Source: Thiohalobacter sp. | GTDB taxonomy: Bacteria; Pseudomonadota; Gammaproteobacteria; DSM-19610 | Assembly: GCA_026984835.1 (NCBI GenBank) | Contig: JALSRI010000107.1 | Span: 1-40,559 of the forward strand | Length of the DNA stretch: 40,559 nt | Direction of reading: 5' to 3' | Shown: positions 4,530 to 40,559 of the stretch, one piece after another | Layout: each line of letters starts with the position of its first letter | Numbering within the stretch: the first letter of the stretch is position 1 | Notes under the pieces: generated by a model | Seen by the model: only the letters and a program-made list of their open reading frames with translations | Databases searched by the model: none | What the model was told of the DNA's origin: nothing | Position numbers and translations under genes: made by a program

Positions 4530-6575
4530 TCACGGCGGACTGCCCGCCGCCGGCCGCGGGGCGGGTTCATACAGGAGCAGGACGTCCCCGCTCCACTTCG
4601 CCTGCCCGGCCTTCACCGCCCGCGGCGGCCGCCGCACCAGCTTCTGGCCGAGGCCGTCCAGATCCTGCCGCAGCTCCCGCAACGGCGTATCGAAATCGTC
4701 GTCCGTGACCAGGAGGGTGACCAGCTTCAGGCGGCTCTCGCGCAGCAGCGACACGTTGCCCACCCACAGGGGCACGCCGTTCTCCAGCTGGTAGCCACCG
4801 GGCCACAGGCGCAGCACCCGCAGGTGATCGGGGTCGCCGCCGGTGCGCGTCAGCAGCAGCTGCTGTTCGCGTCCGTCGTGCACCTGTGGCAGCACCGGCA
4901 GGCGGTCCACGCCGGCGTCGCTGGCGAACAGGTCGGGCAGGCCGGTCCAGGCCGCGGCCGGGCGCTGCCAGCCGCGGGCCGACAATACCCCTTCGAGCCG
5001 CCGCAGGGTGCCCGCCCACTGCACGTCGAGGGGGTGATGGTGACGGCCTTCGAGGTCGTTGCGGTAGGTCGGCAGTCGCTGCCAGCCGCCGTTCAGCCAG
5101 GCGCTCAGGTGCAGCACCCGCGGCTGCTGCTGGTAGGGCTGGTAGCGGGCCAGGTCGGTCTCGAAGCGCTGGCTGCCGTGCCAGGTCCACAGGCCCAGCA
5201 GGCACACCAGCGCCACCGGGACGAGGCGCGGCGGCGAGACGCGGGGCGCCGGGTGCACGCGGTAGGCGATGCCCAGCAGCGCCACCCAGGCCAGGCCGAG
5301 GCTGATGCCGCCGAGCACGTCGCTGAACCAGTGCGCGCCCAGGTACAGGCGCGAGAAGGCGATGGCCGTCACCAGCAGGACCGCCAGCGAGTAGGGCAGC
5401 CAGTGCCAGCTGCTGCGCAGTTCGCGCGCCACCAGCACCGCCAGGAAGCCGAACACGGCGACCGACAGGCTGGCGTGGCCGCTCGGGAAGGCGTGGCTGG
5501 CGGTGAGGCTGAACAGGCTGGGCGGGCGTTCCACGTCGGTGGCCAGCTTGAGTCCTTCGGTCAGCAGGCCGACCGCCACCACCGTGGTCAGCCAGTGGGC
5601 CACGGCGCGCCAGTGCCGGCGCCACAACAGCCACAGGCTCAGCAACACCGTGAAGCCGTACAGCACCACGCCGTCGCCGAGTTCGGTGATGCGTATCAGG
5701 ACGCGGTCGGCCGGCTCGCTGCGCAGGCCCTGCAGGGCGTGGTAGAGGTAGAGGTCGAGGTTGTGCAGCAGACTGCCGGGGGTGAGTTGCTGCAGGGTGG
5801 TCATGAACATCCAGCTGGCCGCCAGCAGCAGCAGGGTGAGCACCGTCATGCCGCGGGCCTCCGGGTGCGCGGGGTCCAGCAGGGCGGCGGCGACGGGTTC
5901 CACCAGCCGGTGGCGGTGGCTCCAGTCGAGAATGGCCAGCCGCACTTCTTCGGCGTGCGGCTGCAGGCTGCGGGCGATACGCCGCACCAGCCACCACACG
6001 AACCACAGCAGCGCCACCAGCAGGCCGATGAGCAGCGCCAGGCGGCCGGCGATCTCGGCGGCCACCCCCAGCGAGGCGCCGAACAGGATGCCGGGCAGCA
6101 TGTAGGCCGGCGCCCACAGGATGGCCGACAGCACGTTGATGACGAAGAACCTGCGCACCGGCATGTCCAGCATGCCGGCGATGGCCGGCACCAGCGGCCG
6201 CACCGGTCCCACGAAGCGCGCCAGCACGATGCTCTTGCCGCCGTGGCGGTGAAAGAAGTCGACACCCCGGGTCATCATTTCCGGGTGGGTGCGGAACGGC
6301 CACATCACCCGCAGCCGCTGGTGGAAATGACGCCCGATCAGGTAGCTGCTGCCGTCGCCGAGAATGGCGCCGATGATGGCCCACACCAGGGTCGGCACCA
6401 GCTCCATGCTGCCGGCCGCCACCATGGCGCCGATGGCGAACATGACCACCGTGCCCGGCACGAACAGGCCCACCACCAGGAAGGACTCCAGCGCCGACAC
6501 CACCAGCACGGTGAGGCTGGCCCAGTGCGGATGCAGCCGGATCCACTCCAGGAAGGTGTCGATCCACTGCTCCAT
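4530..6575 (-). CDS. DedA - PAP2 phosphatase - LssY fusion membrane protein
   Basis: 681 residues with three recognisable parts. Residues 1-200 are a DedA/SNARE-associated (VTT) domain, with the FVPG motif (38-41), the GDGSSYLIGRHF segment (73-84) and FVGPVRPLVPAIAG (121-134). Residues about 245-440 are a PAP2 acid phosphatase with the full motif set: K343-x6-R350-P351, PSGH (364-367) and SRLYLGAHWFSD (408-419). Residues about 470-675 match the LssY C-terminal domain (LPTYRNDLEG, then PLDVQWAG). DedA proteins flip or traffic lipids and PAP2 enzymes dephosphorylate lipid phosphates such as undecaprenyl-PP, so a role in lipid carrier recycling is a reasonable inference. About 10-12 membrane segments are expected. 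The same fusion is known in other Proteobacteria. Confidence 0.88.
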   Translation of the reverse strand: MEQWIDTFLEWIRLHPHWASLTVLVVSALESFLVVGLFVPGTVVMFAIGAMVAAGSMELVPTLVWAIIGAILGDGSSYLIGRHFHQRLRVMWPFRTHPEMMTRGVDFFHRHGGKSIVLARFVGPVRPLVPAIAGMLDMPVRRFFVINVLSAILWAPAYMLPGILFGASLGVAAEIAGRLALLIGLLVALLWFVWWLVRRIARSLQPHAEEVRLAILDWSHRHRLVEPVAAALLDPAHPEARGMTVLTLLLLAASWMFMTTLQQLTPGSLLHNLDLYLYHALQGLRSEPADRVLIRITELGDGVVLYGFTVLLSLWLLWRRHWRAVAHWLTTVVAVGLLTEGLKLATDVERPPSLFSLTASHAFPSGHASLSVAVFGFLAVLVARELRSSWHWLPYSLAVLLVTAIAFSRLYLGAHWFSDVLGGISLGLAWVALLGIAYRVHPAPRVSPPRLVPVALVCLLGLWTWHGSQRFETDLARYQPYQQQPRVLHLSAWLNGGWQRLPTYRNDLEGRHHHPLDVQWAGTLRRLEGVLSARGWQRPAAAWTGLPDLFASDAGVDRLPVLPQVHDGREQQLLLTRTGGDPDHLRVLRLWPGGYQLENGVPLWVGNVSLLRESRLKLVTLLVTDDDFDTPLRELRQDLDGLGQKLVRRPPRAVKAGQAKWSGDVLLLYEPAPRPAAGSPP

Positions 6576-7910: not shown

Positions 7911-8020
7911 GATGGCCACGGAAAGCACGGACAAGAACTTTTTTCAGGACCACGCGCGAAGCGCGGGTCCACATCCGAAGACGCTTTGGTCCGTGTTTTC
8001 CGTACTTTCCGTGGCCATCC
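7911..8020. repeat. 110-bp inverted-repeat element, copy 1 (CACGGAAAG family)
   Basis: The element begins GATGGCCACGGAAAGCACGG and ends with the matching inverted arm CGTACTTTCCGTGGCCATC. The core contains CCACGCGCGAAGCGCGGGT, the reverse complement of the core seen in the copies at 19719 and 40287, so this copy is in the opposite orientation. It lies between hemL and thiE, with its end two bases from the thiE stop codon. The arms are made of 9-bp CACGGAAAG units. There is no coding capacity. Confidence 0.8.
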
Positions 8021-18860: not shown

Positions 18861-18960
18861 ATAGCCACGGAAAGCACGGAAAGCACGGACAAAGGCTTGG
18901 CTTGGCGCGTGGTCCGTCGACAAGGATCTGGTCCGTGTTTTCCGTGCTTTCCGTGGCCAT
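18861..18960. repeat. 100-bp inverted-repeat element, copy 2 (CACGGAAAG family)
   Basis: Begins TAGCCACGGAAAGCACGGAA and ends GTGCTTTCCGTGGCCAT. The left arm has an extra 9-bp unit and the core is shortened but keeps GCGCGTGGTCCG and ACAAGGATCTGGTCCG. It ends 15 bases from the stop of the YrfG-type gene. Confidence 0.8.
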
Positions 18961-19718: not shown

Positions 19719-19828
19719 GATAGCCACGGAAAGCACGGACAAGGGCGGGCTTTGGGGCGGACCCGCGCTCCGCGCGTGGGCCGCCAACAAGGATCTTGTC
19801 CGTGCTTTCCGTGCTTTCCGTGGCTATC
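19719..19828. repeat. 110-bp inverted-repeat element, copy 3 (CACGGAAAG family)
   Basis: Begins GATAGCCACGGAAAGCACGG and ends GTGCTTTCCGTGGCTATC, with core segments CCCGCGCTCCGCGCGTGG and CCGCCAACAAGGATCTTGTC almost identical to the copy at 40287. It lies between the divergent yrfG and cysQ starts, so any native promoters must fit in the 63 and 67 bp left on each side or lie in the repeat. Confidence 0.85.
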
Positions 19829-37938: not shown

Positions 37939-38400
37939 ATGGACATCCGCAAAGTCAAGAAACTCATCGAGCTGCTGGAGGAATCCGGCGTCGCCGAGAT
38001 CGAGATCCACGAGGGCGAGGAATCGGTGCGCATCAGCCGCTACACGGCCGCGGTGCCCCCCGCGCCGCCGCCCCCCGTGGCCGTGGCCGCGCCGCCGGTC
38101 GCGGCGCCCGCCGCTGCCGCGCCGGCCGAGGCGGCGCAAGAGGAAGCCGGCCAGGCCATCCCCGAGGGCCACATCGTCAGCTCCCCCATGGTCGGCACCT
38201 TCTACCGCGCCCCCTCGCCGGGCGCCAGCCCCTTCGTCGAGGTCGGCCAGCGGGTCAGCGAGGGCGACACCCTGTGCATCATCGAGGCCATGAAGATGCT
38301 CAACCAGATCGAGGCCGACACCTCCGGCACCATCGCCGCCATCCTGGTCGAGAACGCCGAGCCGGTGGAGTACGGCCAGCCTTTGTTTGTGATTGAGTGA
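37939..38400 (+). CDS. accB: Biotin carboxyl carrier protein of acetyl-CoA carboxylase
   Basis: 153 residues. The N-terminal part [20 protein letters not shown] binds the carboxylase subunit. Residues about 38-75 are an Ala/Pro linker. The C-terminal biotinyl domain has [19 protein letters not shown] and the biotin Lys in [13 protein letters not shown] (K119). It carries biotin between AccC and the carboxyltransferase in fatty-acid synthesis. It normally lies directly before accC, but here a repeat-bounded gene separates them by 511 bp. Confidence 0.97.
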
Positions 38401-38403
38401 GGG

Positions 38404-38907
38404 GATAGCCACGGAAAGCACGGAAAGCACGGAAAAAATCATGTTTTCAGGGAGGGAAACGGATGTTGGTAGAAAGGGAGCTTACTTACCGGATCCGTGG
38501 ATGTATCTTCGAGGTATCCAGGAGGTTGGGGGCGGGGTTTCTGGAGAAAGTGTACGAGAGGGCTCTGCTGAGGGAATTGACCGTGCAGGGCATCGAAGCC
38601 AGGACCCAGGTTCCGCTGGCTGTGCACTACAAAGGTGAGGTGGTGGGAGAGTATTACGTGGATATCCTGGTAGAAGATCGCGTTCTTGTCGAATTGAAAG
38701 CGCAGGACAGCTTGTCTCCGGTGCATGAGGCTCAACTGATAAACTACCTCAGGGCGAGCGGCCGGCGCGTCGGTCTGCTGGTCAACTTCGTCCACCCACG
38801 TGCAATAGTCAAACGCATGACAATCTGACAACCACCTGTCATACAACCAACCATTATCAAGGTTTTTTCCGTGCTTTCCGTGCTTTCCGTGTTTTCCGTG
38901 GCCATAA
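38404..38907. mobile_element. Repeat-bounded GxxExxY element inserted between accB and accC
   Basis: The left arm GATAGCCACGGAAAGCACGG continues through a further CACGGAAAG unit to GGAAAAAA (to about 38437). The right arm (38863-38907) is its reverse complement, with one additional 9-bp unit, ending TTTTCCGTGGCCATA. Between the arms is a single gene (38463-38828). The arms are the same family as the termini of the 110-bp elements at 7911, 18861, 19719 and 40287. The whole unit begins four bases after the accB stop. A mobile origin is inferred from the interrupted operon and shared ends, not proven. Confidence 0.65.
38463..38828 (+). CDS. GxxExxY protein (PD-(D/E)xK nuclease-like)
   Basis: 121 residues, the normal length. 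The family motif is G25-F-L-E28-K-V-Y31 in [16 protein letters not shown]. The nuclease-like core follows: D67 in [11 protein letters not shown], then E77-L-K79 in VLVELKAQD, and a final [13 protein letters not shown] helix, together the PD-(D/E)xK_3 arrangement. The cellular function of this family is unknown. It lies between inverted 9-bp-unit arms in the accB-accC interval. It lacks an obvious strong ribosome-binding site (GGGAAACGG precedes the ATG). Confidence 0.92.
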
Positions 38908-38911
38908 CAAG

Positions 38912-40252
38912 ATGCTAGATAAAGTCGTCATCGCCAACCGCGGCGAAATCGCCCTGCGCATCCTGCGCGCCTGCCGCGAAATGGGCATCAAGACCGTGGC
39001 CGTCCATTCCGAGGCCGACCGCAGCCTGAAGCACGTGCTGCTGGCCGACGAATCCGTGTGCATCGGTCCGGCGCCCTCGGTGGACAGCTACCTGAACATC
39101 CCGGTGCTGATCGCTGCCGCCGAGGTGACCGACGCGGTCGCCATCCATCCCGGCTACGGTTTCCTGTCCGAGAACGCCGACTTCGCCGAACGGGTGGAGA
39201 AGAGCGGTTATGTCTTCATCGGCCCGCGCGCCGAGACCATCCGCACCATGGGCGACAAGGTGGCCGCCATCCGCGCCATGAAGGAAGCCGGCGTGCCCTG
39301 CGTGCCGGGCAGCGACGGCCCGCTGGGGGACGACGGCGACACCAACCTGCGCCTGGCGCGCAGCATCGGCTACCCCATCATCATCAAGGCCGCCGCCGGG
39401 GGCGGCGGGCGCGGCATGCGCGTGGTGCACGCCGAGGCCAACCTGCTCAACGCCATCGCGCTCACCCGCACCGAGGCGCGCACCGCCTTCGGCGACGATA
39501 CCGTCTACATGGAGAAGTTCCTGGAGAAGCCGCGCCACGTCGAGTTCCAGGTGCTGGCCGACGGCGAGGGCAACGCCATCCACCTGGGCGAGCGCGACTG
39601 CTCCATGCAGCGCCGTCACCAGAAGGTGGTGGAGGAGGCGCCGGCCCCCGGCATCACGCCCGAACAGCGTATGGAGATGGGCGAACGCTGCGCGGAGGCC
39701 TGCCGCAGGATCAACTACCGTGGCGCCGGTACCTTCGAGTTCCTGTTCGAGAACGGCGAGTTCTACTTCATCGAAATGAACACCCGCGTGCAGGTGGAGC
39801 ACCCGGTCACCGAAATGGTCACCGGGGTGGACATCGTCAAGGAACAGCTGCGCATCGCCGCCGGCGAAGGCCTGGGCTACCGCCAGGAAGACATCACCTG
39901 GACCGGACACGCCGTCGAGTGCCGCTTCAATGCCGAGGACCCGAAGACCTTCCTGCCCTGTCCCGGCACCATTACCCAGTACCACGCCCCCGGCGGGCCG
40001 GGCATCCGCGTCGACACCCACATCTACAACGGCTACACCGTGCCGCCCTATTACGATTCCATGATCGGCAAGCTCATCGCCCACGGCGAGGATCGCGCCG
40101 CGGCACTGGCGCGCATGCGCGGCGCCCTGTCGGAAGTGGTGATCGACGGCATCCGCACCAACATCGAACTGCACCAGGACATCTGCTCGGACGCAGCGTT
40201 CCTGGCGGGCGGCACCGACATTCATTATCTGGAGAAGAAGTTGGGGTTATAG
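38912..40252 (+). CDS. accC: Biotin carboxylase subunit of acetyl-CoA carboxylase
   Basis: 446 residues, full length. ATP-grasp enzyme that carboxylates the biotin on Acc[21 protein letters not shown] starts the N-terminal domain; K116 and K159 flank the Gly-rich loop GGGGRGMR (163-170); the [15 protein letters not shown] segment and [18 protein letters not shown] form the active site. The ATG lies five bases after the right arm of the GxxExxY element, leaving no room for a normal spacing, so translation initiation must use the repeat sequence or a poor site. The TAG stop (40250-40252) is the first part of a following repeat. Confidence 0.97.
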
Positions 40253-40396
40253 CCACGGAAAGCACGGACAAAGCATTCCGGTTGTAAATAGCCACGGAAA
40301 ACACGGAAAACACGGACAAAGACGGGGTTTGGGACGGGCCCGCGCTCCGCGCGTGGTCCGCCAACAAGGATCTTGTCCGTGTTTTCCGTGGCTATT
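40248..40396. repeat. 110-bp inverted-repeat element, copy 4, preceded by a solo arm
   Basis: A solo left arm (TATAGCCACGGAAAGCACGG, 40248-40273) provides the accC stop codon. It is followed by a complete element (40287-40396) that begins AATAGCCACGGAAAACACGG and ends CCGTGTTTTCCGTGGCTATT. The core CGCGCTCCGCGCGTGGTCCG and CCAACAAGGATCTTGTC match copy 3. The complete part is 110 bp, the same as copies 1 and 3. Confidence 0.85.
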
Positions 40397-40420
40397 ACCC
40401 CCCTGATCCACCACCCCCCC

Positions 40421-40559
40421 ATGTCCTGGCTCCAACTGACCCTAGACGCCGCCGACCTCGACCCCGAGGCCCTGTCCGCCTTCTTCGAGTCGGCCGGCGC
40501 CCTGGCCGTGACTTTCGAGGACGCCGCCGACCAGCCGCTGTTCGAGCCCGACCCCGGCG
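40421..40559 (+). CDS. prmA: Ribosomal protein L11 methyltransferase, N-terminal part (3' end outside window)
   Basis: Only the first 46 codons are present. MSWLQLTLDAADLDPEALSA with FFESAGALAVTFEDAADQP is the typical PrmA N-terminal substrate-recognition domain. PrmA trimethylates ribosomal protein L11. accC-prmA adjacency is usual in gammaproteobacteria, which supports the call. A repeat element lies between the two genes and may affect coupling. Confidence 0.85.
   Translation, partial: MSWLQLTLDAADLDPEALSAFFESAGALAVTFEDAADQPLFEPDPG

Follow-up and report, generated by a model that had tools for sequence, protein, structure and literature searches.

In the window analysed here, a 40,559-nucleotide stretch of the Thiohalobacter sp. 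contig JALSRI010000107.1, the genes accB and accC are separated by a short unit in which a gene of the GxxExxY family lies between inverted arms. Based on sequence comparisons, we consider it probable (about 0.62) that this unit represents a copy of a nuclease element, mobile or homing, on which palindromic satellites depend. Since arms flank the gene in at least 17 phyla and gene-less arm copies are present in the same genomes, the arrangement looks like a widespread mobile-element system. The comparisons show that the gene and its arms travel together, that the arm dialect follows the protein clade, that units occur in one sister genome and are missing from the orthologous site of the other, and that gene-holding genomes also contain gene-less (solo) elements of the resident dialect.

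The gene-bearing unit and its protein

The relevant features of the window are as follows.

37939..38400, plus strand: accB, upstream neighbour; stop codon ends 4 bp ahead of the unit
38405..38905, plus strand: gene-bearing unit, outer ends ATAG...CCAT
38405..38443, plus strand: left arm, an ATAG head followed by three CACGGAAAR units
38463..38828, plus strand: GxxExxY gene, 121 aa, predicted PD-(D/E)xK nuclease family
38858..38905, minus strand: right arm, four units in inverted orientation, then the head
38912..40252, plus strand: accC, downstream neighbour; start codon 6 bp past the unit
7912..8018, unstranded: solo element with matching arms
18861..18960, unstranded: solo element with matching arms
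19720..19827, unstranded: solo element with matching arms
40249..40395, unstranded: solo, complete at 40288-40395 and nested behind a second left arm; the ATAG head overlaps the accC stop codon

The first-pass annotation had described a unit of 504 bp (38404-38907) with arms of 9-bp units and one GxxExxY gene. Unit, inverted arms and gene are all there, but the ends are better placed at 38405-38905 (501 bp), since an ATRG-type head is conserved at both ends and nothing beyond it. The arms are 94% complementary in either of two pairings, over 34 nt (38410-38443 with 38858-38891) or 31 nt (38405-38435 with 38875-38905), and an arm 23-mer with up to three mismatches has 9 matches in the window compared with none in 100 shuffles. 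The arms match no Rfam family. The sole recognisable gene within the unit is that of the 121-aa GxxExxY protein (TIGR04256, 139.5 bits; PF13366, 137.7 bits).

The AlphaFold2 model of this protein has a mean pLDDT of 96; no solved structure related by sequence was found. The best fold matches to the model are LHK-Exo, SSO0001 (a Cas4 protein), lambda exonuclease and AdnAB, with E-values of 6e-4 to 9e-3 and TMq of 0.51-0.60 for matches including 3syy, 4ic1, lambda Exo and AdnAB. The D...ExK catalytic core of the lambda-exonuclease/Cas4/RecB branch is found as D67, E77 and K79, which, together with E28, Y31 and other residues, are invariant in 77 sequences; 44 of these 77 members also weakly match the Cas4 profile. 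GxxExxY is thus a predicted nuclease of this branch of the PD-(D/E)xK fold, nearest to lambda exonuclease and Cas4. Judged from the alleles at a site shared by sister genomes, where dN/dS is about 0.09 with dS near saturation, the protein is under purifying selection. The window gene matches the PF13366 and TIGR04256 profiles only, in other words neither the Y1 HUH tyrosine transposase (PF01797) characteristic of REP/RAYT nor the DDE transposase of insertion sequences.

A nuclease fold might also be expected of a restriction or abortive-infection enzyme whose gene is kept between palindromes acting as transcription terminators, and four members do weakly match a restriction-fold toxin profile. 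Nevertheless, GxxExxY has no match in PADLOC or PHROGs, a consensus scan revealed no terminator-like site at the arms, and solos far outnumber the genes. We regard a role in toxicity or defence as very improbable.

Arms accompany GxxExxY genes across phyla

A single scan of a genome collection yielded 80 named loci from Pseudomonadota, Bacteroidota, Chloroflexota, Acidobacteriota, Planctomycetota, Verrucomicrobiota, Cyanobacteriota, several candidate phyla and methanogenic archaea. Together with loci of relatives and one viral contig they make up a wide sample of 97 loci. Counting inverted arms at a score of at least 16, and using as a control the upstream and downstream flanks of different loci mixed, we found arms at 64 of the 97 genes versus 8% in mixed flanks. 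In an independent unbiased sample, for which 249 genomes of the phylum were drawn evenly and gave 40 matches, mostly full-length, the corresponding values were 31 of 40 and 4.7%, and most of the remaining genes have shorter arms by eye. Two inverted repeats thus flank the gene, as in REP/RAYT, and armed genes occur in both bacteria and archaea, in no fewer than 17 phyla. The commonest arm unit is C-R-C-N-R-A-G plus 1-3 bases (the RAG dialect), and in the most common dialect the outer end reads TTCACC or similar; CACGGAA, CRCNGAT and CRCGAAT arms make up further dialects. There are usually one to a few GxxExxY copies per genome. At the sensitivity used, plasmids (8 of 72,556 records) and viral contigs (one locus) contain almost no members of the family, and phage records contain none; a match to E. 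coli DNA and phage relatives were likewise not found.

The first-pass annotation had asked whether the arms co-vary with the protein, and they do. When mapped on a 135-protein tree, the four arm dialects require 5 changes compared with at least 13 in shuffles, and a two-state division into RAG and all other dialects requires 2, again compared with at least 13. By this measure the repeat coevolves with the protein, as is characteristic of REP/RAYT. Within the RAG dialect, arm composition and protein distance are weakly correlated (r 0.13, p 0.006), also after removal of pairs from the same known phylum (r 0.11, p 0.018). Part of the correlation between arms and protein would be produced by co-inheritance of linked arms. 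However, one and the same dialect recurs in many phyla, which argues for a constraint on the arm sequence, most simply recognition, and we infer that the tandem 9-bp arm units are probably recognised by the GxxExxY protein.

Solo elements in the genome of the window

The genome of the window holds one GxxExxY gene. The first 16 bases of the arm recur in this genome as 72 exact copies, of which 37 lie on one strand and 35 on the other, most of them paired in inverted orientation; its arm copies are thus dispersed in the manner of REP sequences. The same 16 bases are absent from 17 of 19 other genomes, with 7 copies in G011 and 1 in G003. As single strands, the window solos fold into strong hairpins (z -6.6 to -9.9). 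In 25 elements of this genome, the A, T and G of the ATRG-type head are present at both ends in all 25 and the R in 24, and there is no conservation outside the heads. Target duplications, a feature suggested for checking, were not found: no direct repeats of 2-9 bp flanking the 25 elements exceeded permutation, and a 2-bp AT duplication is indistinguishable from the ends.

Four elements of 100-110 bp with matching arms had been reported as coreless or short-core derivatives of a parental 504-bp unit. The four elements are present, but "coreless" does not describe them well, as many solo cores have a common GC-rich hairpin of the GCGCGC type and do not look like derivatives of the gene unit. 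Considering this core of their own, the sharp ATRG ends and the lack of target duplication, solos are not simple deletion derivatives, and such a derivation is too simple.

Several observations concern the variability of these elements. Two contigs from one genome bin (window 40088-40559 and the end of G000:C232, locus L127) are ~99% (98.9%) identical over the 3' end of accC and carry different element forms at this place, while the gene after accC is ~83% identical. The two contigs probably represent two related strains in one assembly. In the same part of the window (40225-40435, minus strand), arm repeats yield spurious reading frames (VFRVFRGY-like peptides), which annotation pipelines may call proteins. 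A second solo family with ACCGCCAAGACGCCAAG arms (CGCCAAG) makes up most of 63 pattern hits in G000, on contigs C3, C14, C24, C27, C110, C132 and others; a matching GxxExxY gene is absent from G000. Separately, solo cores at L185 851-966 and at L178 near 5360-5500 contain other repeats (of the GTCATTCCGGC...GCCGGAATCCAGG type), which gives the impression that elements insert into each other.

Solo elements and the presence of the gene

To relate solos to the gene, we counted the arm pattern ACCRCVRAGNCRCVRAG and treated genomes with at least 10 hits as positive. Among relatives, 8 of 13 gene-positive genomes reached this threshold versus 1 of 82 gene-negative ones (Fisher 9e-8); in the phylum sample, it was reached by 11 of 35 versus 4 of 214 (Fisher 8e-8), although the p-values of both tests are not fully independent because the genomes are related. 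Elements near a gene also tend to match that gene's own arms: 22 did so versus 5.6 expected (none of 20,000 permutations reached 22), and a second test gave 11 versus 4.1 expected (p 0.005). A pair of sister genomes provides an example. G003 has a gene with CACGGAATCCACGGAA arms (GGAATC) and 18 pattern matches, the majority with precisely this arm sequence, whereas G001 (~95% identical) has neither such a gene nor pattern matches. The proposed link between the short elements and the GxxExxY gene is therefore upheld, as solos concentrate in gene-holding genomes and use the resident dialect. In G008, G011, G015 and G228, solos are present and no gene was detected, several such genomes being incomplete; these cases fit dependent satellites remaining after gene loss.

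The main alternative is that the palindromes are REP/REPIN-like sequences moved by a RAYT or another transposase encoded elsewhere, and that GxxExxY is cargo or an exapted gene caught between two of them. The ATRG head does resemble the GT(A/G)G head of REP (PMC2817692), sites of the same kind host other REP-like palindromes, and some genomes have solos and no gene. On the other hand, most GxxExxY genes are bracketed by arms in 17 phyla including archaea, the dialect follows the GxxExxY tree, solos are enriched where GxxExxY is present, and other dialects end in TTCACC and lack a GT(A/G)G-like head. Taken together, we find it unlikely that GxxExxY is only a passenger.

Filled and empty sites

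The unit was said to interrupt a normally contiguous gene pair, and relatives agree with this: in the window the two genes lie apart (accB up to 38400, accC from 38912), while in most relatives the pair is uninterrupted, with a spacing of 9-38 bp or an overlap. The 38-bp spacer of G009 (L130) contains a degenerate half arm (TTCCGTATGTTCCGTGCCTTGCGTGGC), possibly the scar of a lost element, and the accB-accC spacer of G004 contains a different REP-like palindrome. More generally, unrelated REP-like palindromes (of the GGAGCGGGCTTGCCCGCGAA type) are seen in relatives at intergenic positions of arm elements, such as the L132 accB-accC spacer and L176 4743-4828.

Most genomes compared are draft assemblies. 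G001 and G003 are ~95% identical over aligned stretches. Precise empty sites had been named as a further check, and two gene-bearing units of G003 have empty sites in G001, with junctions of ~10-20 bp that do not align cleanly. At the site of the G003:C68 unit, the flanking genes of G001 overlap stop to start (ATGA could have been duplicated there), and at that of G003:C215 there are ~20 bp. At solo sites of this pair, one genome has the element and the other has another palindrome, dialect or core, or nothing, and there are replaced cores within conserved arms. At a gene-bearing site shared by sister genomes, the flanks are ~95% identical, over half of the unit is ~65% identical and the rest ~90%, so that the interior looks as if it had been replaced or converted. 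Two apparent gaps between G003 and G001 were rejected as elements, both being in coding sequence.

These sites also bear on a resident function, in which the arms would be operator or processing sites of the nuclease (serving autoregulation, palindrome maintenance or nucleoid and repair functions) and the palindromes would have spread by ordinary recombination. Purifying selection, invariant catalytic residues, the low copy number and the near absence of the family from phages, plasmids and viral contigs all agree with housekeeping. Empty sites, dialect-specific bursts of scattered solos and patchy presence between sister species do not, and we consider such a function quite unlikely.

A possible mechanism

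Returning to the mobile or homing nuclease element, it is tempting to consider how it might spread. The GxxExxY protein would bind the arm units as a multimer and would cut or trim DNA at the arms or at a hairpin formed by them. The break could then be repaired with another arm-bearing element as template, so that solos would spread in trans, elements already in place would have their interiors converted, and a new intergenic site would occasionally be seeded. Solos would in this case be satellites that depend on the element in the way REPINs depend on RAYTs. Break and repair fits the replaced interiors, the solos in trans and the new sites; no movement intermediate was seen. To our knowledge, strand transfer is not among the activities of lone PD-(D/E)xK nucleases. 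We put forward a break followed by templated repair as a tentative route, with the odds somewhat against it. The broader proposition is that the units represent a novel class of mobile DNA in prokaryotes, found in 17 phyla or more, archaea among them. A lone nuclease similar to lambda exonuclease and Cas4 would recognise the tandem 9-bp units and, with no transposase, spread both its own gene and gene-less palindromes through break and templated repair. This proposition seems to us a serious possibility at slightly less than even odds.

The results suggest a role for the orphan family GxxExxY (PDDEXK_3), and they may explain why genomes of many phyla contain a class of short intergenic palindromes. 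Because arm dialects correspond to proteins, recognition of the arms can be tested directly in vitro. We found no publication linking GxxExxY/PF13366 to repeats, most subscription papers lying outside the literature searched. Within it, the name GxxExxY appears in two papers, neither of them concerned with repeats, PF13366 appears in one, and the arm strings occur in no paper.

Comparison with known systems

Rpn proteins are PD-(D/E)xK nucleases, and in this respect GxxExxY resembles them. However, it belongs to another Pfam family, as none of the 77 members match PF04754. Rpn proteins (YhgA-like, PF04754) were once named transposases and have been linked to DNA mobilisation (PMC5350276, PMC10327210). 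With Cas4, lambda exonuclease and RecB, GxxExxY shares the fold, the D-ExK core and a QxxxY-like motif (Q91, Y95), but it is much smaller, its consensus lacks a conserved cysteine cluster, and the window gene does not adjoin cas or phage recombination genes. If the nuclease does spread palindromes, the Cas4/lambda exonuclease family gains a mobile-element branch. MITEs and their parent insertion sequences offer another parallel, that of short non-autonomous elements whose ends are common to a gene-bearing element; here, in contrast, the solo core is no deletion remnant, there is no DDE transposase and no target duplication was found.

The closest parallel is RAYT/REP, in which a gene lies between two inverted palindromic repeats, copies are dispersed, and repeat and protein trees agree (PMC2817692, PMC3116915). 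The GxxExxY system is alike in having a gene between inverted repeats, many dispersed copies in the same genome, matching repeat and protein trees, several dialects per genome, intergenic, clustered and nested elements, and no larger target duplication. It differs in that GxxExxY is an unrelated PD-(D/E)xK nuclease and RAYT a Y1 HUH tyrosine transposase, in that the arms are tandem 9-bp units and REP is one GC-rich hairpin, and in that the ends lack a GT(A/G)G head, being ATRG in the dialect of the window's genome and TTCACC in others. The system moreover extends to archaea and spans at least 17 phyla, and its units are present or absent between sister species. The earlier description of a nuclease-based analogue of REP/RAYT fits in most features and, because the enzyme is unrelated to RAYT, the system is an analogue rather than a member. 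If the nuclease spreads the palindromes, the REP/RAYT arrangement has evolved at least twice, with unrelated enzymes.
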